Origin: Leuctra nigra
Lineage: Eukaryota > Arthropoda > Insecta > Plecoptera > Leuctridae
Reading direction: 5' to 3'
DNA length: 64,000 bases
Assembly: GCA_934045905.1 (NCBI GenBank)
Contig: OW203769.1
Span: 13,857,705 to 13,921,704 of the forward strand
Made by a program: the position numbers and the translations under genes. The notes beneath the pieces are model-generated. The model did no database searches. It saw nothing but the letters and a program-made list of their open reading frames with translations, and had not been told where the DNA came from. Of the stretch, positions 14,638 to 44,330 are shown in pieces. How positions within the stretch are numbered: position 1 is the first letter of the stretch; each line of letters starts with the position of its first letter.

Positions 14638-14710
14638 TGACCGAACCGGGACTCGAACCCGGGACCTCTCACTTGCCGGGCGAGAGCTCTACCAACTGAG
14701 CTACCCGATC
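14638..14710 (-). tRNA. tRNA-Ala(GGC)-like unit, probably a SINE head
   Basis: It folds as a full cloverleaf: acceptor GATCGGG with TTCGGTC (three wobbles), D-stem GCTC/GAGC, anticodon stem CTCGC/GTGAG, T-stem CCGGG/CCCGG. Position 33 is C instead of the invariant T, which argues against a functional tRNA. Flanking GATATTTTTCACAAC belongs to a repeat. It lies head to head with the next unit, 2 nt apart. Confidence 0.55.
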
Positions 14711-14712
14711 GG

Positions 14713-14785
14713 ACTCGGGTAGCTCAGTTGGTAGAGCTCTCGCCCGGCAAGTGAGAGGTCCCGGGTTCGAGCCCCGGTTCGGTCA
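14713..14785 (+). tRNA. tRNA-Ala(GGC)-like unit, mirror copy
   Basis: Inverted twin of 14638-14710; the two form an almost perfect palindrome extending about 60 bp further on each side (ATCCCTTCATAT flanks). The acceptor 5' strand reads ACTCGGG, which pairs worse than the twin. Internal A and B boxes (TAGCTCAGTTGG, GGTTCGAGCCC) are intact, so Pol III initiation is possible. Confidence 0.55.
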
Positions 14786-23301: not shown

Positions 23302-23770
23302 GTGTAAGAAAATTTAAATTAACTGTACATATCTCATGTACCTATCTACTCTATATTTGGATATTGATGAAGATGATGCAATAACGAAATGATATTGAGA
23401 ATTTCAACGCAAAGATAATATCACTGAGCCACCTTAACCGATAACATCTACTTTTTGATAACTATGAAGATGCAATCACGCTATGGAAGCTGCTGAGTGT
23501 ACTCGAGGTATCAGATGATACGCTGGCGCTGCACTTGGTTGTTGTGATTGTGAAGGTCGGCCGGTGTTGCGCTTGCAACACTGGACAGGTCTCCATGATG
23601 TGACGTCATGGGGGTGTTGAGTGGCGTGTGGTGAGTGTAAGTGACGGTTTAGTGACATTCACCGCATCAGGAGAGGACAGAGTGAAGAGACGTATTCTAA
23701 GCTAGTTCAAGTAGCATCGCTTATCATCATCTGTTGATATCCTATACTTAGCACAGATTGTACACCAGAG
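23302..23770 (+). promoter_or_regulatory. Presumed promoter and 5' UTR region of the NACHT/ankyrin gene
   Basis: It lies between the TTAA element and the first ATG. Locally GC-richer DNA with TGACGTCATG (CRE-like) at about 23600. No TATA box is evident. The transcription start cannot be placed. Confidence 0.3.
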
Positions 23771-24307
23771 ATGGCTTCCAGAGCAGACAGAGTCCCCGGA
23801 GAAATGGCGGGTTCCAGAGCAGAGAGCAAAATTCCCATAGCAGTGAAGGGTCCAACTGTGGAGGCAGTTCCCCGAGCAGTGGTGGTTTCCAGAGCAGACG
23901 GGGGTTCCAGATCAGTAACGGGTCCCAGAGCAAGGCCTGGAAGTGTAGTGGCGGTTTCGGGCAGCTCCAAGTCACAGCCTAGAGAGTTGAATACATCGCT
24001 GAGAAGCCAGATTATAACACTCAATGACAAGATAAAGAAGGCTGAAGGAGATCACATGCATGAAATACAGAAATTAAATGAAGATCACAAGAAAAACACA
24101 AGGAAATTAAATGCATGTTACAAAAAAGAAAAACAGGAATTAAATGAAAAGCTAAATGAATTTATGAGTCAATATCTTGAGATGGAACAACGATTGAAAG
24201 ACGAAGCCATATGTAACGCACAGCTGAAACAGCAGGTCGCAGATCTACTCCATGACGTCGCAGCATCAAAAGTCGAAGAAGACAACTCAAAGATGGAAAT
24301 TAAACAA
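23771..24307 (+). CDS. NACHT/ankyrin gene exon 1: low-complexity N-terminus and coiled coil
   Basis: 179 codons from the ATG at 23771 to the GTAAGT donor at 24308, phase 0. The first 70 residues derive from a degenerate repeat around GGTTCCAGAGCAGA, giving Arg/Ala/Val/Ser-rich sequence. The rest is Lys/Glu-rich heptads (LNEKLNEFMSQYLEMEQRL), likely for oligomerisation. Confidence 0.72.
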
Positions 24308-27300
24308 GTAAGTTACTTATCAGATTTTGTTTTAGGTTATTGGTGGTTAAAGGCGACGGACCGGGTGTGGGGAGGGGGAGACCTGCCCGAGGGGCCCGCG
24401 AATTTGGTGGTGGGTATATGAGATTGGGTCGACCATGGCTGCTCTTTGTGGGTAACCCTTACACATACATGAGCATAAATGCTCGACAGACTTGCCAGGA
24501 TATCATTGGCCAACACAAAATATGTAACACTGCGCTAAGGTGGCAGCCGCCGGGGGTACACCTATACTTACTTATCAGGAAATTAGCCAGTTTTAAAAAT
24601 GATAACTTAACATATAATTTTCAATATTACGGCACTAGATAAAGAATATTATCAAAATGATCGAAAATCTATCCCAGGTTCACTGAAGAAAGGGTCACAA
24701 TATATAAGATTAATAATTTTAAGAAACCTTGACTCTGGGATCTGGCGTTATCGAAGAGAATAATGTGGAACATGATAAAGATTATATGATAATGGTGGAG
24801 CTGATAATAAGTGAATGTGATATGACAAATTACAATAGGATACTATTGCGTATTAAAGCAATTTAGATTACTAATTTAAGTTTTTAATTTCAGGACGAAG
24901 AATCAGGAGAGTTATCTGAAAGGTCAGTAAGACATTTAGTTTGCTTATGATCCCCATATAAATAAATACAATCCATGTAAGAAATCAGTAAAGTCTCCTT
25001 TACTAAAATAATAAAATAAAATAAAATTCAGCAATGTGAATTAGTGATATACAAAATGGGTCCATGTCAACAAAATGGAGCATTGGAAATTACATTTTAT
25101 TTTCGAGCTACGGCCCAACATACCACATGTTCCAAGTTTTCAAACAAGAAAGTATTCCTTTTACGACCTTGAGCAATGATTCACAAACGTTTGCGTTTTA
25201 CGGCCCTCGAATTCGATGTTTTATTATAAGTTTTTCAAATTATTGGACTGGTCCGCCCATCCCTGTACGCTATCAACGGAGCACAGTTTGAAAACTTGGG
25301 GATTCAAGTATTAAATCGTGTTGACTTTGTACCCATTTATTCAATCACTAATTTTCAGAGCTAATTTTTATTTATTTAAAAAATAAATAAACAAAATATG
25401 TAAATATGTAAGAATATTTAAATATGTAAAAATGTAAAAATATGTAAATATGTAAGAGGATATTTAATCTCTTTTTAAAACCAGATTCTCTTGTCCACAG
25501 TACAACAACCAACGCAAGTGTCATAAGAAGCTACATTAAGACACCAGGAAAATGCAGTTTAGAAGGACAAATGTTGGAGATCAAGTTGCTGGAACTGATC
25601 TTCTTGCGTGCCATCAACAGCGGCAGCTCCTTCTTCCTCGCGACAAACATAGCTGCAGCTGGAACCTTCGACGACATTGTCATTAGAATCCAGGAAGGTG
25701 ACAAGTGGTCGACCACACTCTTCCAGTTGAAGTACAAAGAAACGTCTACAATTGGATACGAGCATCTCCTTAGTTTTAAAAAGAATAAATTTGGTTTGGT
25801 AAAATTTTGTGATTCTTTTCTAAAAGTAAAAGAAGGATGTGGTTCAGCTGATTGTGAGTGGCCATGGAGGGGAGAGTTTGATGAATTCAAGTTCGTTCTC
25901 TACACAAATGCCAAGCCTGACAAAGATCTTATTGACCACGAAAAGGAATCTAAAGTTAAAATTGACACAATGTTTGCCTCATTCGCTTTCGGATCAGCGT
26001 TTCATTTTTCCGAGTTGTCCCCTATCTTCAAGTACATCGAAGAGATTGTGGAATTTAAACTAAAGATATCAGATTTAATTGAGTTAACTAAACGATCTTC
26101 CAAGGAAGAAATGGCCGAAGCCATAGAACAAAATGTATCACATTTTTATGTCTCGGATCAGAATAAAGAATTATTAACTAAGAAATGTAAACTTACGAAA
26201 GAGCCTTCGAAAAAGATTCTGCTTGACACATCTAAAGAGTTAACATCAGTCCAAGACATCTCATCGTACGAGATGTTCTTAAATAAAATGTTTATTTACA
26301 CAGGACAAGCGAAAGAGAATGAACTTGACTGCTTCATAACTTCAGAAATCAAGAAAGTTTTTAATTTTTCCAACGACACCGATGCTAATTCATTACACGC
26401 GTTGCTTTTTGATTATGTTCGAAAATGGTGGGGTGACAAAAATGCAGAGGGGTCGTGGCTTACAGAACATTCAGATATTTGGAAACACGTCATGTCTCGC
26501 AGAATATTTCAGTTGTCAGAAACAAAGGTAGCAGAATTTCAGAAAGACGGTATGCAGTTTGAATCAAAATTAAATGGACGTCTTTACAATACCATACAAG
26601 AATGCCGAAGGTTGAATATTGTTGTTCAAGATGGAGCTAATTCTTTGGTAGCGTCACAAGTGTATCAGGTATCAGGTAATAGTTTCCACATATTTACAGG
26701 ATCAAAGGAGCTGCTGACGAGGAAGGATGAGATTATCGCAGTTTGGAAGAACATCTTATGCCAAGGTCTCGTTATCGATTGTGATACAACTTTATCAGAT
26801 GAGGACACACTTGACATTTCTAATCAGTTGTTATCAGCATTTATTTCACAAGAAAATGTATCACTAATTTTGATCTCAACCAAAGACGACTCTATGGCAC
26901 AAACGTTACGTCCTGTACTGTTGCAGTCACAAATCGATGTACAATGGAGCGACCTAACTTCGGAAACCCAAATTACTCTGATGGCGACAACCATTAGATT
27001 TCAAGGTCACACGGTGCCCCTCAGTTCATTCGTGGGTGATGACCCCATTCGGATTAACCAGCAGTTACAAGGCATTCTGGCCGAGGTTTTGACTTCAGAA
27101 CTCGAAGTTGGTAGAGTCCTGGAGACTTTGATAGATTCTTACATTCCTCGTAGATTGACCCGGGACAATGTGGAGATTAGTGTTGAATCCTTGGCCGATG
27201 TTCCTGACAGAGTAGTGGTGTTGGTCGCCGAACCGGGGATGGGAAAGACAACGCTTGTCACACATCTGGCTCAAACTGCGAAGCTTGCAGATCCATCCAC

Positions 27301-29470
27301 TTGGGTCGTGCGGGTCAACTTGAACGACTGCACTACGTATCTTTCCAGACTCAATCCAGATCGTATCAACAAAGCCACATCAATTGATTTCCTCGCCCAG
27401 TTTGCATCTTCGATTGACTCTGATGTCGAAAGAAGCATATTGAAGAATCGTTTGTTGTTCTCAGGAAATGTGACTGCGTTTGTTGATGGGGTGGATGAAA
27501 TCTGTCCGTTCTATGAACAAACTGTTTGTTCCCTTTTGATAAATCTTCTTGAAACTAAAATCGAAATTATCTGTATAACGTCTCGAAAAGTGTCCCAAGT
27601 TAGTTTGGAAAAGGCACTGAAGGTAAAGGCTCACACTCTGGTAGCTTTCTCGCGAGAAGATCAGAAGCGTTTCTTTGAAGTTTTTTGGAAAGATAAAACT
27701 TTCAACCACGAAAGACCTCTCAGCACGTTTCTAGACAAAGTAATGCAACTTTTGGGAAACGGAATCATCGGGGGAACTTTGGCTGCGGGCAATGCCCATC
27801 AGAACCTCATGCTAGCAGAATATTTCAATCCAGACCTAAATTGCTATTTAGAAACCAGTTTAATAAAATTTCCAAACAAAATCAACATACTGAAGTTGTA
27901 TAATAGTTTTGTTTATAAAAAGCTTGAGAATTATAGTGAAACTAAAAGGAAAGATGATATGAAAAATGCTGCAATTCAAGTTGACAAAACACATCTTCGT
28001 ATTAGGATTCATGAAAACCATACGATTGCCGCGTTATTCCTTCTGCTTTCTCACGATGAATTCGAATCGATTGTTTCAAAGGACGGTCTTCAAGAGGACA
28101 CAATAGTCAGTCTTGAAAAAACAGGCATTATTAGCAATGTAACCAATGGCAAACCAAATTTCATCCAACGCTCGTATGCAGAATACTTTACATCCCTCTG
28201 GATATCGGTCAATTACCCAAAATTGCAAGTATTTCTTAGAAATACTCTTTTCCAGCCTCGATTTCAAGTTGTCAAGATATTTCTTGATCTCTAACTATCT
28301 GCTGACTGTAAGTTGCACATGCACATTATCAATCAGGACTTGGAGAAATTCAACAAGTTCTTGCAATCACGGTCGTCTTGGACAGAAGGATGTATAGATC
28401 GGACTGACTCTGGCGGGCGAACGGCTTTACATCTGGCAGCCTCGTGTAACAATCGCGAGAACCAAGTTTCTTTCGTGTCTAAACTCTTGGAACGTAAAGC
28501 AAAGGTTGACGTTCAAGACGATCTGTTGAAGTGGCGGCCATTGCAGTACGCTGATGCAACAGGTTCATGGAACGCCGTAGCTTTGTTATTGCAAGCGGGT
28601 GGGTTGGAAAATGACATGAAAGAGACAAAGAGGAGGATCAAGGTAGAGGTTTACAATGGCTTGATTCAGTACTTGTCATCCCCCAACGCCTGTTATGTTG
28701 ACCTAATGCTGTTGGCTTCACGTCACGGTGATGTGGAGGTTGTCAGGTACCTCGTCGAAGAGTGCGGTGCAGACGTCGAATGCCGTGGAGACGACGTCTC
28801 AAGTCCGATGCACAAGAGTGCTGAAGGCGGCCATGTTGACGTGATGGGTTTCCTATGGGCTCAAGGTGCGTCTTGCAATGTGCTCCAGGATATCAACTCC
28901 CTACCCTTGCATAACGTGGCAACAGTGCAGGCTGCGGAGTTTCTTGTCCAGCACGGTTCTTACGTCAACGCATTCAACCATAACGGAGAGTCTCCTCTCG
29001 CCTTGGCTTTGAGGAAAGCAAATGTTGATGTTGCCAGATGGTTGATCGATCACGAAGCTGATCTTGATGCAGTTACCTTGGAGGACTGTCCACATTGGTT
29101 GGCCTTTAATACAGGGTCCGTGGATCTAGAAGAGTACTTCGTACTGTTAGATCAATCTAAACGAGGTCAAGGAGTTACACAAATCATGTACAAGGAACTA
29201 GACCAAGTGAATGCGTCAGAAAGCAAGTTACTCTATAAACCTGTACACGATGGTGATTTAGAAGAAATGAACTCCCGTCTTGATGGTGGCCAGAAAACAA
29301 CACGAAGGCGTAAACATTGGGAATCTATGAACCACGTAGCGGGCGGGTCGCTTGATGTAAAATATCTTCGCAAATTAGGAGCAGACGCGAATGCAATACA
29401 CTCAAATAGAAATTCACTGACACAGTCTCTGCCAAGTGTTGTTTTAGGACGTTCATCTACATTTCCCTAA
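23771..29470 (+). CDS. Coiled coil - PD-(D/E)xK-like - NACHT - ankyrin STAND protein, interrupted by one in-frame TAA
   Basis: Exons 23771-24307, 24894-24922 and 25501-29470 join in one frame: 1119 residues to a TAA at 28292-28294, then 391 more codons in the same frame. Residues 1-70 are low-complexity and 70-180 form a charged coiled coil. Around residues 213-270 the pattern TFDDIVI ... FQLKYKE (D246/D247, Q264, K266) resembles a PD-(D/E)xK nuclease core as in Cap4/DUF4297 effectors. A middle region of unknown type follows. Walker A AEPGMGKTT is at 765-773 and Walker B VDGVDE near 850-855. FIQRSYAEYF near the NACHT C-terminus is typical of NACHT-ankyrin proteins. Ankyrin repeats follow the TAA. 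By family logic ankyrins sense, NACHT switches and the nuclease acts; the function here is inferred. Introns argue against bacterial contamination. It may be functional through readthrough or splicing, or a young pseudogene. Confidence 0.82.
24333..24565. mobile_element. Partial copy of the unclassified retroposon, intron 1
   Basis: GGGTAACCCTTACACAT, ATTGGCCAACACAAA and GGTGGCAGCCGCCGGGGG match 4060-4165 in the same window orientation. The copy lacks the CTAAT-tail side. Confidence 0.62.
24894..24922 (+). CDS. NACHT/ankyrin gene exon 2, 29-nt microexon
   Basis: Between TTTTAATTTCAG and the donor GTCAGT. It encodes DEESGELSE plus two bases. Without it exon 1 and exon 3 would be out of frame, which supports it, but a 29-nt exon needs transcript proof. 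Confidence 0.6.
25030..25365. repeat. Inverted-repeat element in intron 2
   Basis: AATTAGTGATATACAAAATGGGT at the left (shortened here) corresponds inverted to the right end ACCCATTTATTCAATCACTAA. The interior (CGAGCTACGGCCCA, TTTTACGGCCCTC) resembles 1200-1300 of the 272-bp-period family. Confidence 0.6.
25501..28294 (+). CDS. NACHT/ankyrin gene exon 3: nuclease-like and NACHT domains up to TAA
   Basis: The acceptor CTTGTCCACAG precedes 25501; the frame enters 23 codons before the internal ATG at 25571. The uninterrupted 907 codons from that ATG hold the nuclease-like core, Walker A at 27227 and Walker B at about 27479-27499. The stop is TAA at 28292, directly followed by CTA. Confidence 0.88.
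28295..29470 (+). CDS. Ankyrin-repeat continuation after the TAA
   Basis: The same frame stays open for 391 codons and ends at TAA 29468-29470. About six ankyrin-like repeats are visible: GGRTALHLAAS, DLMLLASRHGDVEVVRYLVE, SPMHKSAEGGHVDVMGFLW, LPLHNVATVQAAEFLVQHG, ESPLALALRKANVDVARWLI. Continuity of frame and domain order shows this was one protein. Confidence 0.82.
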   Translation, partial: LSADCKLHMHIINQDLEKFNKFLQSRSSWTEGCIDRTDSGGRTALHLAASCNNRENQVSFVSKLLERKAKVDVQDDLLKWRPLQYADATGSWNAVALLLQAGGLENDMKETKRRIKVEVYNGLIQYLSSPNACYVDLMLLASRHGDVEVVRYLVEECGADVECRGDDVSSPMHKSAEGGHVDVMGFLWAQGASCNVLQDINSLPLHNVATVQAAEFLVQHGSYVNAFNHNGESPLALALRKANVDVARWLIDHEADLDAVTLEDCPHWLAFNTGSVDLEEYFVLLDQSKRGQGVTQIMYKELDQVNASESKLLYKPVHDGDLEEMNSRLDGGQKTTRRRKHWESMNHVAGGSLDVKYLRKLGADANAIHSNRNSLTQSLPSVVLGRSSTFP

Positions 29471-31506: not shown

Positions 31507-33026
31507 CTACTTTAGGTGAAGTGCCACTTTAAAGGCTCTTGCCGTTTCTGGCCATTCCTCCACCCAAAATCCCAGCTTATTCCACTCTGTGGTCGTTCTG
31601 TGCATAAATGAGTATTTTCCGATGTTCTTCTTAACTTGATTCACTTGTAGTTTGTACGGATGGTCCCTTCGTTGAGAATAGAAAGTACTGCTCTGAAGTC
31701 TCTGACCAATTTCTCCCCACCCTCCACATCCAACACAGGCTCTATACAAGTTACAGAGTCGGGCCGTCTTCCTTCTCTCTTCTAAAGAGGTCCACCCTAG
31801 CGACTGTAACATTGCCGTTGGGCTCTCGTATTGTGTGGTGAGAGTTCCGTTTTCTTCTACCTTCCAGAACCACCTTCTCCACTTCCCTGCCACCCTTCTT
31901 GCTGCCAATCTCTGCACATTTTCGACGCTTTTTATTTGTTGAATGACATAAGGATCCCACACTGCAGAAGCATACTCTAAGATTGGCCGGACTAACGACA
32001 GATAAGCTTTTTCTTTTACTGTGTTATCTGTGCCACGAAGGTTTCTCATAGCAAAGTTTATGCATTTTGTAGATTTAGTCACGACTCTTTCTACTTGCGG
32101 AGCCCAACTCATCTTATGGTTAAGGACTACTCCAAGATACTTGTACTCCTTTACCACCTCTAAGGGTTTCCCCCTGAGAAGAAGGTGTAGCTTTGTAGCA
32201 TTGCGTTTGGTGGAAAAGCACATTGCCTGACACTTGCCTACATTAAGTCCCATTCGATTTTCTTTTACCCATTCTTCTACTTTCACAAGATCTGATTGAA
32301 GTTCCTCAATATCATCACTGCTTTGAACAGATCGCAGAATTACGCAGTCATCTGCAAAGAGTCTTGTGCGTGAAGTAAGTCCATTCTTAATATCATTTAT
32401 GTAAATCAAAAAGAGAAGAGGTCCCAACACACTCCCCTGGGGAACACCTGATGTAACAGCTTGCTCTCTTGACTCTACATTTCCTACTCTCACCTTCTGC
32501 ACACGGCCGTCAAGAAAGTCGCCAACCCAGTTCATCACCCTTTTGTTTATCACTGTCCCCAGTTTAGCCATTAGTAGTGAGTGAGGAACCTTGTCGAAGG
32601 CCTTCTCGAAGTCAAGGAACACTGCAGCCACTTCTCCTCCCTGGTCAAGCTCGTCTGAAATATCTTGTACCAATCCAGTAAGCTGCGTCTCACATGAGTG
32701 AGCTCCTCTGAAGCCGTGTTGTTCTGGAACCATCCAGTTCTGCTCACTAATTGAAGTTCGGATGTATCTGTCAATCAGTTTTTCCATTAGCTTTGATATT
32801 GAAGCAGTGAGGCTGACTGGTCTATAATTGGCCACCCTTCCTCTCTCCCCTCCCTTAAATATTGGTATTATCGTTGCTTCTTTCCAGGCCCGAGGCAATT
32901 TTCCTAGCTTAAGAGAGAGCTGACATATTTGGGTAATGAATGGAGCAATTTGCAGTGCACATAATTTCAGAAATCTATTGCTTATTTGGTCTGGTCCCGG
33001 TGCTTTACCTGGCTTCAGTTTCCTAA
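31507..33026 (-). pseudogene. LINE ORF2, reverse transcriptase half
   Basis: Open from the Helitron junction (33026) to the TAA at 31507, 506 codons. It shows KPGKAPGPD, the fingers segment RPVSLTASISKLMEK, FLDFEKAFDKVPH (motif A), SGVPQGSVLGPLLF (motif B) and LFADDC (catalytic FADD motif C). The C-terminus contains the Cys/Trp-rich tail usual in non-LTR RTs. It would copy element RNA at a nicked target. It has lost its upstream half to the Helitron. Confidence 0.9.
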
Positions 33027-33672
33027 TTGAGCGAGCGTAGCGAGCGTCACCACGGTACTCTTATGGCACTTTCTCTGTGTGTTTTTTTTTTTTTTTTGTG
33101 GTCACAGCCCAGGTTAAACCGCTCAAGCAATCGATCTGAAATTTTGTACACATACTAACGTAATCGATGCGGTCCCTGGGATCGTTTTTGAATGGGCTCC
33201 CGTGATTGGTTCAAATTTAAAAAAAATTATCTTTCGATTGGGTGCTTCGATTAATTTGAAATTTAGCAAAAACATTGCAACCAACATTGTACCCAATCAT
33301 AAAAAGTTTCAGACATGGGGTTTTTGACATTTAAACTAGAACAGATTGACCGATCAACTTAAAACTTGGCGTGGTCATTGGTACCAACATTTTAGATATT
33401 TTTGCCAATTGTCAGTCTAATCTGTCGTTATTTTCAAAAGTTTTGTCATTTTAAGGTCATTTTATTCCATAATCTTGAAAAATGTATACTAAATTGTCAT
33501 CCCTGCCTTCTTTAAGCTTCTGTTCCAAGGCAAGGCCTGTAGAGCAGCCAAGCTATCCACAATGTGTGTGAATGTGTATCCACAGTAAAATGAAAGCATT
33601 TTTGAGCTAGCGCATAAAATCAATCGGATGCAGTACGAAGGCCAAATCCTCTAATTGGTTTAAGTTTAAATA

Positions 33673-40427: not shown

Positions 40428-41410
40428 ACAGGATATGTGGAGTTGACAGCGAAGCTGCTGTGTTGGTAGATGAAGGGGAAGAGCGGAACGCTTAATATTG
40501 ATAATTTTTCCACTTCCGGTTTGAAAATTTTGTTTTTTCTTGAAGTGGAGTGTCTAGCAATACATTGTCTTTAATGTTGCCAAATTTCAAAACTGTCGAT
40601 GGACCCGTTTGACTTTTGAAAAAAATTAAAATTTAAAATTGGATAAATTCACTTCCGGTCAAAATATTTCAGATTTTCTTTCAGAAGTACGCGTGAGAAG
40701 GGGGACTCTATGTGTCTACCAAATTTCAACTCTCTAGACCAAACCGTGCAATCTGTAGAAAAGGGCAAGCAAAACGACGTGCCTAGCTAGCTAGCTAGCC
40801 AGCCAGCCAACATGAAAGTCAATCCTTGCATGTTTGAGGCCCAAAATTCACCCCAAAGGGATGAACGCAGCACTTTGATATTTGGTTAGGTGTTGTCAGG
40901 TGGCTAAATATACCCGATAACCATGATTTTCAACTTTCATTTCTCACTGCATGTATGCCTGTCGACACCTCGTTTCGACCACTTAAGCCGTTGCGGTATA
41001 AGTCTCTGGTAGTAGCTCGCACGTTGTATGAGAGCGGTGCTTGGCAGCGTCGAGCTAGCGCCCGACTAGATGTCTTCTGATTGGTCGACAATAAAAATGT
41101 TCACATTAAGTTCAAATTTTGCATGGTGATCAAGACCAACTTAATATTAAATTTTACATATTGTAAGCCCAATCAGTCAAGTATTAATTGTAATTTTACC
41201 AGTTTAGTATGGGATGTCACAAGAGATTTCTGGAGAAGGTATGTAGGTAAGACAATTCACGGCACAATGGATCTGTTATTCATCCAGAGTATTATGGAGA
41301 TTGAAAAATTGCAGAGAAAATCGTCTTGTGCCGTGTCGTGCATCGTTACTATGGGGATGTTGCATGTTCTGTGCTCGCTCATCAACGCGTTACACTGAGC
41401 GTTTTCCTAG

Positions 41411-42780
41411 TTAGGTCAAACACCACTCTATCATGAATTCCTACAGGTGACACGTTAGTGATTTGATCTTCAATTTCTTCTCTTGTAAAGGGTGACCATT
41501 TTAGTTCCTCCTTTTGGAACACACTTGCATATTGATTACTAAAGGCTTCAGCTTTTTCACCATAACTTTGGCAAATGTTACCCTTTCCATCAAGCAAGAG
41601 AGGGGTTTTGTTTCCTCCCTTCTTTTGATTTCTCACATGCTTATACATATTATTCCAACTTTGTTGTAGATTTTTCTCGTCAAACATTTTGTGCATGTAT
41701 CTGTTTCTTGCATTCCGTTTTGCCACTTCTAGATCTTTACGTAATTTCTTAAAACTTTCCAGTCCATTGTTAGTTCGCTTCATCCTCCCATACATCTGTC
41801 TAGCTTTTTTCTTCAGCTTGAGTATCTTCTTGTTGTAGTAGGGGGGATCAGCATTTTCGGAAAGGTACTTTACAGGAATATATTCATCTTGGATGTCCTT
41901 GCATATCTGGCAAAAGCTGTCCCAGACATGATTCAAATCTTCAAATTTTCCCTTTCCACTTGTTGAATCCACTGGGTATATTTTTCTTGCAATTCTCTCT
42001 TAATCCCGTCCAAGTTCGCTTTGGCATAGCAGAACACTTTGGTTTTTAGCTTCATTTCAGCTTTTTCACATTTAGTCCATTCAATTTCTATGAGTGGAAT
42101 ATCATGGTCACTTATTCCACCAATGATTTCACTGCGCTGCCAAATGTCTTCTGGTTTCACTAAGACCACGTCTAGGATGTTACTAAGACTACTGTTCCTG
42201 GTTTGTCTTGTGCCGGATTGAACCGTTTGTGCAAATCCCAAATTGGCTAGTTTTCTAACGGCAAGCTGACTAACATTTCCTATTTCCTCATCACCTGCTT
42301 CCCAGGATACTCCAGGCAAGTTGAAGTCTCCTACGATGACTGTGTTGATGGCTTCATGTTGTTTCATCATTTCTTCTACTAGTTTTTCTATAATTTCGAG
42401 CCCTGAACCCGGCGGTCTGTAAACTGCTACCACATTCAAAACATTGGTACCTTCTTCTAATCTAACGCACAATAATTCCCAAAGATTATCGCTGAAAACA
42501 ATCCGACTTTGAATTCTTGAATGTACCGCGATTAAGATTCCTCCACCTTGACGGTTTCTATCTCTTCTGTGTACCACGTATGTAGCAGGGATAACTTCTG
42601 TCGAAAGAATGTCATCAACCAACCAAGTTTCTGTGGCTATAAGTACATCAAGTTGGTATATTTCTAAAAGAGTGCTTATCTTATCTACCTTATTCATAAT
42701 GCTACGGCAGTTGACATTAGCTAACCGGAGACCCAGTTTGCATGTCAGCTCACTCTCCTCCAGAACAATCTTGTCCGAAA
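41411..42780 (-). pseudogene. LINE ORF2, endonuclease half, frameshifted and cut
   Basis: An EEP-type endonuclease: GLRLANVNCRSIMNKVDKI, then LIATETWL (metal-binding Glu), IVGDFNLPG and ISDHDIPLIE (catalytic Asp/His). No upstream ATG is found between a stop near 42795 and the Met at 42697. Near 41950-41972 the frame shifts by one (42697-41933 frame to 41972-41411 frame). The linker to the RT ends VFDL at the Helitron junction. It would nick target DNA for retrotransposition. Confidence 0.87.
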
Positions 42781-42951
42781 AACCGTACTCTTATATTCAG
42801 ATCTCTTCTTCTGGTTTTCAGTTGGAAACTGGTCTTGTTTCTCAGAAAGATGTTCGTTCGGAAGATATTGATGCTTTTGCAGCTTCTGATGCTGATGTCG
42901 TCGTTGTTGTCCTTGTTGTTGTTGTTGCCCTTGTTGTTGTCGTCCTTGTTG

Positions 42952-44076
42952 TTATTGCCCTTGTTGTTCTTGTTGTTTCCAATGTTTTATACTATGATAT
43001 CGATTATTATATCGATTACTGATATCGATTATATGGTCTTGTTGATGTTGCTGTTGTTGTTCCTGCTGGTGCTCCCGACATCGCTGTTGCTTATGATGTA
43101 ATTTTTGGGTTTGCTGCTGCTGTGCATTTTGATTATTATTTTGTTCATCTTGTTGTTTCTTATCGTTCAACAATACTTGGGTTTGTTTCTGTGATTGACC
43201 ACATACATGCATTGCTACTGGATACTGTTGGTGTTCAACATAATATTGTACTTGGCATTGTTCATCTTGATGAGATATCTGTTCTCTCACTGTACAATTC
43301 ATGTCTACAGTCATCTGTTCAATGTCCAACCGATTTTTCTCTTGACTTTCTGTCACTTGTTCCATTAGCTTTTCGAGTCTAGTGGTAATCTCTTTCCATT
43401 GAACAACAAATTCCATTCTCTCCCCCGTTATCTTCTTGATTTCGTGTTCTAGTTCCTTACTACACAGCAACTTGTCGGAACACCTTTCTTTCTCCAATCT
43501 AATTAATTCGTCTATATTCCACACACTCCTTCTTTCCGGCTCTTCTTCCCATACCCGTCTCCTTTCGTTCTCTGCTTCCGCTTTCATTTTCCAATCCAAG
43601 AACATGCTCTTCATGTCTCTCAGCTCTTCTCTAAATCCCATTTCGTATACCATTCTTTCAGCAAACAATTCTATAGATTGTTCTTCTGATTGTTCCGTCT
43701 TCAACTTCATATCAGTCATATCTTTCTTTAAGTCTCGTAATTCTTCTATGAGATGTTCCAACATGAAGTTGTCATTATCCTTCATCTTTCCATCATCCAC
43801 TCGCGCAACTCTAACTTCCATTCCTTCTTGCTCTTCTATTCTGTCAGATTCACAGAGAAGAACCGCGTCCTTGCATTTGCATTCCTGACATTTCCAATTC
43901 TTTACCCCGGTTCTAAACTCTTCTTTCTCTCTCTCCTCTACTACACTTGCACATCTGAAGTGTAGTTTTACTGAACAGACCTCACACATTACTCCATTAA
44001 CACATCTCCTTAGACACTCATTGCATAATATCTTTTCTGAATCTGATGTTTGTGATGGTATTTTTCCTTGCGACAT
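42952..44076 (-). CDS. LINE ORF1: PHD-like finger, coiled coil, poly-Gln tail
   Basis: 374 codons. Residues about 18-70 hold a Cys/His pattern of PHD type (CNECLRRCVNGVMCEVC ... LHFRC ... WKCQECKC). The middle is Glu/Lys-rich coiled coil. The C-terminus is Gln/His-rich, encoded by a CAA/CAG repeat visible as TTG/TGT runs at about 42900-43170. ORF1 proteins of this LINE group bind element RNA and multimerise. This frame is intact, unlike ORF2. Confidence 0.75.
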   Translation of the reverse strand: MSQGKIPSQTSDSEKILCNECLRRCVNGVMCEVCSVKLHFRCASVVEEREKEEFRTGVKNWKCQECKCKDAVLLCESDRIEEQEGMEVRVARVDDGKMKDNDNFMLEHLIEELRDLKKDMTDMKLKTEQSEEQSIELFAERMVYEMGFREELRDMKSMFLDWKMKAEAENERRRVWEEEPERRSVWNIDELIRLEKERCSDKLLCSKELEHEIKKITGERMEFVVQWKEITTRLEKLMEQVTESQEKNRLDIEQMTVDMNCTVREQISHQDEQCQVQYYVEHQQYPVAMHVCGQSQKQTQVLLNDKKQQDEQNNNQNAQQQQTQKLHHKQQRCREHQQEQQQQHQQDHIIDISNRYNNRYHSIKHWKQQEQQGQ

Positions 44077-44330
44077 TCTAAAGACCGTGACTTTGCTTGA
44101 ACAAAAAAGTCTTCAAGTAAGCTTGAAAAATTAAACTTTTTTTTCCTCTGATATATTTTCTATAAAAATTCTATCTCACCAACATAAAATTTTGATCATA
44201 TCTTCGCTATTATAGCACGTAAATACAAATTTTATATCTATAAATACTTGCCAGTCCTTTGTTAGTCCGACAGTTATGATCTTTCTGGGTAAATCCACAA
44301 AAAGGCTCAATTTTTCGAATGTATTACTCA

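Follow-up and report, generated by a model that had tools for sequence, protein, structure and literature searches.

The text of PMC11291478 describes DUF4297-HerA as a double-stranded DNA nuclease that needs dimerisation of its nuclease domains, and reports that in SeAvs3, a signal transduction ATPase with numerous domains (STAND), a viral protein brings about tetramerisation, in which the nuclease domains pair. According to PMC13245274, the characterised eukaryotic STAND proteins other than SAMD9 and SAMD9L all work via adaptors. For arthropods, the main text of Bordenstein & Bordenstein (2016, PMC5062602) reports that the NACHT protein of the Wolbachia prophage WO has homologues throughout arthropods and crustaceans. 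Here we describe a predicted gene in a window of 64,000 nt of Leuctra nigra (contig OW203769.1, positions 13,857,705-13,921,704, forward strand; C8:13857705-13921704), which lies within a 33-Mb contig of an assembly of 536 Mb in 144 contigs. This gene is probably an interrupted member of an expanded arthropod family of STAND proteins similar to NOD-like receptors (NLR), with the order coiled coil or ankyrins, PD-(D/E)xK nuclease-like domain, helical and pre-NACHT linker, NACHT and ankyrins, for which we propose a ligand-triggered nuclease working.

The core of the gene is an open reading frame (ORF) of 948 open codons (25448-28291, + strand), with 914 open codons from 25550 to the stop. Positions are window coordinates and protein residues follow a three-exon gene model, whose numbering matches that of the initial annotation exactly (E215, D246, D247, Q264 and K266). 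This ORF contains the motifs LATN..FDDIVIR..FQLKYK, Walker A AEPGMGKTT, Walker B VDGVDE and SYAEYF. AlphaFold2 (AF2) models of the N-terminal domain (25550..25924, +; model residues 1-125, protein residues 206-330) present the a-b-b-b-a-b core of the PD-(D/E)xK superfamily, in agreement with comparisons to PDB structures and with hhalign. A nuclease had been proposed for residues 205-380, and the predicted model of this segment does have a restriction-endonuclease fold; structure comparison indicates that the predicted domain shares its fold with the DUF4297, Cap4 and Avs3 nucleases.

We then examined the nuclease signature in an alignment of 69 domain sequences (25 rows from the L. nigra genome, the prophage copy and 43 of 70 retrieved proteins). 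The helix-1 glutamate E215 (25577..25579, +) was found as E in 61 of the 62 rows with a residue (7/69 gapped). In the FDD motif (D246-D247; 25670..25675, +), D246 was kept in 67/68 and D247 in 68/68 rows with a residue (1/69 gapped), and both Q264 and K266 of the QxK motif (Q264-L-K266; 25724..25732, +) were kept in 69/69 rows, so that the conservation of D246, Q264 and K266 anticipated by the initial annotation was observed. The six least variable columns of the alignment were D42, Q59, K61, T119, D41 and E10 (counted from 25550; adding 205 gives the protein residue). The ratio of nonsynonymous to synonymous substitutions (dN/dS, NG86) in the nuclease-like domain was 0.10-0.46 in 11 of 14 hand-chosen paralogue pairs, the other three giving no value, which indicates from these sequences that the domain is maintained by purifying selection. 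These results bear on whether the PD-(D/E)xK fold now serves for no more than nucleic-acid binding or scaffolding, the signal passing via adaptors as in other animal NLRs. Non-catalytic members do exist among PD-(D/E)xK relatives, and the metagenomic protein P0056 carries two tandem nuclease-like copies in which FDD is changed to FSD and FGD. However, five of the six least variable columns in the 69-sequence alignment are the signature residues E, D, D, Q and K, a pattern difficult to account for unless the domain is catalytic; together with the low dN/dS, this makes a mere scaffold unlikely.

The resemblance to Cap4 was weaker at the sequence level. Against eight Cap4/DUF4297 sequences (L044, L048-L053 and L046), hhalign gave 62.6-70.4%, versus 17.0-22.6% against the seven sequences without L046. 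The controls remained at or below 1.8% (helical, pre-NACHT and NACHT segments) and 1.2% (40 column-shuffled Cap4 alignments). The alignment with the Cap4-type sequence L048 places FDD over HDD and QLK over QVK. On the basis of signature conservation, hhalign controls and predicted fold, we rejected a chance likeness of the nuclease motif. Among 10 domain slices, PADLOC matched LmuA for L018 (E 9.1e-6) and SAVED_PDDEXK for L022 (E 0.0073), with no match in the other eight, including those of the window gene and the prophage; on whole blocks, LmuA was matched in 1/25. PF14130 matched 0/10 domain slices at E up to 10, a search in which the HMMER filters drop most matches above ~0.1. Likewise, sequence searches of Pfam, NCBIfam and PDB returned no nuclease match for the domain, NCBIfam giving only a few chance-level hits, and Pfam found no nuclease in the domain of four insect relatives (a PIN_3 line in P0009, E 0.063, lies at 796-903, outside the domain). 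PF14130 was found in 4 of 274 genomes of one class (3 above cut-off) and in 0/2 of the genomes of the bacterial matches L031 and L032, where controls gave no signal either; scans of viral contigs confirmed no Cap4 relatives. The initial comparison with Cap4, DUF4297 and Avs nucleases thus stands by structure and weak profile similarity, but not as sequence-level membership in PF14130. We conclude that the nuclease-like domain, as modelled, is Cap4-like by fold and not a PF14130 member by score.

The nuclease-like domain is followed by a helical region (26075..26689, +; model residues 176-380) defined by AF2 secondary structure, the match to 9c1m_G spanning model residues 1-320, and by a pre-NACHT a/b region with an FQGH..PL motif (26690..27184, +), common to the bacterial L031 and the metagenomic P0001. 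The NACHT STAND NTPase (27185..28264, +) presents the Walker A motif AEPGMGKT (27227..27250, +; AEPGMGKTT at 27227-27253), the Walker B motif VDGVDE (27482..27499, +; DGxDE) and a NACHT fold, which are the features of this class of NTPases. The Pfam NACHT match of the window gene is slightly under threshold (E 1.4e-5, 25.4 bits versus a cut-off of 26.7), and 25/25 rows of the family alignment match at E<=1 (best E 9.6e-11). Structure comparison of the AF2 model places the NACHT fold nearest to NLRC4, NLRP and NOD2. In 25/25 family rows, the P-loop region (27167-27280) is matched by EruA, the NCBIfam profile of an antiphage NACHT protein, with a best E of 1.4e-10, far below its cut-off. A same-frame ORF of 391 codons plus stop (28295..29470, +) contains ankyrin repeats (28295-29467; Pfam Ank_2, E 7.1e-27). 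No leucine-rich repeat (LRR) family was present among its Pfam matches, and ankyrins stand where a canonical NLR (NACHT-LRR) has LRRs.

The nuclease-NACHT protein is one of many in this genome. Searching the assembly, with the best 50 of 215 candidates scored, yielded at least 69 match rows at E<=1e-3, which by our own count correspond to at least 47 places on ten contigs; 7/69 rows contain internal stops. Loci were drawn up for 30 of the 47 places, and 25 of these, including the window gene, span the block (968 alignment columns); L020, L024, L025 and L016 were left out as partial matches and L029 for lack of an ORF spanning the block. The 24 other copies are 34-52% identical to the window gene over residues 1-914 (counted from 25550). 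Invariant in 25/25 rows are E10, D41, D42, Q59 and K61, as well as the P-loop AEPGMGK (A560-K566) and D646, D649 and E650 of Walker B. These motifs are far beyond chance, because the block recurs at ~47 genome places and in distant insects. The ankyrin part gave dN/dS ratios for 10 of the 14 pairs, 0.495-0.705 in five and 0.145-0.343 in five; on these values it is not uniformly faster-evolving than the nuclease-like domain. Four diverged copies are clustered on the same strand in ~45 kb of another contig (G000:C11:20215347-20260977), with open frames of 1595-1643 aa.

We further searched for relatives in other organisms. With the block of the prophage locus L034 as protein query and 7995 candidates scored, at least 54 matches were found, and every match with a named organism was an insect: Helicoverpa, Mythimna, Spodoptera, Trichoplusia, Chrysodeixis, Heliothis, Arctia, Manduca, Ostrinia, Loxostege, Culex and Malaya, in addition to unnamed entries. 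These proteins are annotated only as 'NACHT domain-containing', 'uncharacterized' or similar. The nuclease and helical part of the paralogue L018 matched 15 proteins, from Bacillus rossius, Cryptotermes, Blattella, Periplaneta and unnamed entries. The window protein itself, with the 8000 candidates sharing most words scored, retrieved a single protein, P0001. Both this metagenomic protein and the bacterial L031, from a metagenome-assembled genome labelled Proteobacteria, share the pre-NACHT and NACHT parts only, and the match of L032 is limited to 44 residues around the P-loop. P0001 has ankyrins ahead of the same pre-NACHT/NACHT linker, and no nuclease-like domain was seen in it; its start is presumably OTU-like. 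We read P0001 as an effector swap on the same pre-NACHT/NACHT chassis. In relatives from Lepidoptera and Culex (P0003, P0007, P0009 and P0015), ankyrin-like stretches precede the nuclease-like domain, where the window gene has a coiled coil; Pfam identifies them in P0003 and P0009, and those of P0007 and P0015 were recognised by eye. The initial annotation had proposed an arthropod NACHT receptor: the family does recur in insects, but the relatives described in 2016 in the main text of PMC5062602 had been missed.

Scanning viral contigs with the family profile led to L033 and L034, which match query residues 2-900; L034 shows 27% identity in its best segment and a frame of 3785 open codons within the locus (4755 in its record). 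Over its first 9 kb, this record matches 17 phage records, every one of them from Wolbachia, with genes for terminase, portal and baseplate, which identifies it as a Wolbachia WO prophage. In the L033 record, the same prophage NACHT region is broken up into several shorter frames, one match containing a TAA, in contrast to the open frame of L034. The prophage NACHT gene shares its record G002 (L034 / L055) with a 602-aa protease-like ORF, which we take to be cif-like. A search of phages with the NACHT stretch of L034 (near search) found none, and tblastn of the window protein against phages and plasmids gave no match. In a FastTree phylogeny of 31 of the 69 rows (unrooted, midpoint used only for drawing; the prophage row flagged as compositionally atypical), the prophage copy groups with the Culex and lepidopteran sequences, its neighbours being Lepidoptera (support 96). 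Thirteen L. nigra copies form one clade (support 100) that groups with cockroaches, termite, stick insect and metagenome rows. Since this clade lies apart from the prophage copy, we rejected a recent Wolbachia insertion as the origin of the window gene. Bacterial contamination of the window is likewise improbable, given its 33-Mb contig and the ~47 family places on ten contigs. The placements in this unrooted tree fit a lineage-specific expansion in L. nigra and a host-to-phage transfer to WO.

The window gene differs from its intact relatives in one respect. The initial annotation joined PD-(D/E)xK, NACHT and ankyrins in one protein; all these parts are present, but an in-frame TAA that it missed (28292..28294, +) ends the nuclease-NACHT frame and splits off the ankyrin ORF, which continues in the same frame. 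Intact relatives such as L004, L008 and P0057 combine effector, STAND and C-terminal sensor repeats in one protein. The junction codon is a sense codon in 25 of the 28 other in-genome ORFs aligned there; among the remaining three, L027 and L030 end before the junction and L020 has unrelated sequence. The set was made up of the longest open frames, among them near-identical pairs (L012/L025, L016/L017); the 25 sense codons are therefore not independent of one another. As assembled, translation would end after NACHT at residue 1119; the product would retain the nuclease and NACHT parts but lack ankyrins, unless the gene is a null. There is a nearly even chance that the window gene is a pseudogene, informative only about its family, as suggested by a stop where most aligned ORFs are open and by the internal stops in other match rows. 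However, the 914 codons before the stop and the 391 after it remain open, and a cryptic splice or a polymorphism may account for the TAA. Moreover, dN/dS after the stop is 0.28 (versus L024, dS 1.18), against 0.31 for NACHT before it (dS about 0.9-1.2), and any loss would be recent. Because the two values are similar, the TAA looks recent, allelic or erroneous in the assembly.

The complete gene is predicted as join(23771..24307, 24894..24922, 25501..28294) on the + strand, with GT/AG borders and compatible phases. Exon 1 (23771..24307, +; 179 codons) runs from the ATG at 23771 to the donor GTAAGT at 24308 within an open frame at 23738-24421, and encodes a low-complexity, basic stretch and a coiled coil. 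A 29-nt mini-exon (24894..24922, +), placed between TTTCAG and GTCAGT, is predicted from splice signals and phase. Exon 3 (25501..28294, +), supported by its ORF and fitting phase, encodes everything from the nuclease-like domain to the TAA after NACHT. The only match of exon 1 in the L. nigra genome is itself, and this single copy could mean that the coiled coil and the nuclease-NACHT exon are parts of different genes. Yet the splice borders and phases fit, and Bacillus rossius P0057 and Periplaneta P0067/P0069 also present, by eye, a coiled-coil-like start ahead of the domain; we regard separate genes as very unlikely.

Elsewhere in the window, a reverse-transcriptase ORF of a non-LTR (long terminal repeat) retrotransposon lies ~2 kb 3' of the gene (31507-33060, -; Pfam RVT_1, E 1.9e-33), and ORFs at 41382-41999, 41933-42790 and 42952-44112 (-) resemble, by eye only, a second long interspersed nuclear element (LINE), with endonuclease-like and zinc-finger ORF1-like parts. 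Two tRNA-Ala (GGC) genes at 14638-14785 stand on opposite strands with one base between them, possibly a palindromic short interspersed nuclear element.

By analogy with Avs3 and DUF4297-HerA, the ankyrin repeats of an intact family member would sense a ligand and hold the protein in a closed state. NACHT, once opened by ligand and ATP exchange, would oligomerise, and oligomerisation would pair the N-terminal domains into active Mg-dependent nucleases cutting DNA. An immune role, as proposed in the initial annotation, may be supposed for the family. A role outside immunity, for example in holding transposons or maternally transmitted symbionts in check or in reproductive conflict, seems improbable to us. 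The occurrence of the architecture in a WO prophage whose record also carries the protease-like gene (cif-like by our assumption), and of LINE ORFs in the window, would suit such a role. However, the NACHT fold is nearest to that of inflammasome NLRs, and the effector-like nuclease fold is common with anti-phage systems.

More broadly, we tentatively suggest, at somewhat less than even odds, that a large family of fast-duplicating, Avs-like immune receptors exists in arthropods, that their built-in PD-(D/E)xK nuclease would kill infected cells or destroy invader DNA without adaptors, and that phage WO took one of them from insect hosts. If true, arthropods, regarded as a phylum poor in NLRs, would have in this family an equivalent of the inflammasome NLRs, and insects a candidate class of intracellular sensors. 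An insect NACHT protein with its own restriction-type nuclease would tie animal NLRs directly to bacterial Avs, and the architecture would hint at what the NACHT gene of phage WO does.

Lamassu LmuA and CBASS Cap4 are structural matches of the domain and the sole PADLOC families matching it in isolation (2/10 slices), but their systems are without NACHT. LmuA and Cap4 are activated by SMC-like partners or cyclic oligonucleotides. SAMD9 and SAMD9L are vertebrate proteins. As described in PMC13245274, they too are animal STAND-like proteins with their own nuclease effector; they differ in their tRNase-SA domain (an anticodon nuclease), a P-loop with Gly for Lys and another architecture. In DUF4297-HerA, as presented in PMC11291478, nuclease and ATPase are two proteins and the ATPase HerA is not a STAND protein. 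For the shrimp LvNLRC, an arthropod protein with a NACHT domain, PMC12370184 reports an antiviral role. The prophage WO NACHT-ankyrin protein and its arthropod homologues (PMC5062602) belong to the same family, L034 aligning over query residues 2-900. The main text of that study covers NACHT, ankyrins and latrotoxin-CTD, and the words 'nuclease', 'endonuclease' and 'DUF4297' occur in it 0 times. In the open-licence PMC literature, most subscription papers being outside this scope, we found no report of a nuclease domain in arthropod NACHT proteins. With the family itself known since 2016, what appears to be new here is its predicted PD-(D/E)xK domain and its Avs-like layout. Intact members share the effector-STAND-sensor layout of bacterial Avs with a Cap4-type nuclease, such as Avs3 (8dgc) and Avs4 (8dgf). 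In contrast to Avs3 and Avs4, the L. nigra family consists of animal genes, its NACHT is nearest to NLRC4, NLRP and NOD2, and ankyrins replace the Avs sensor.
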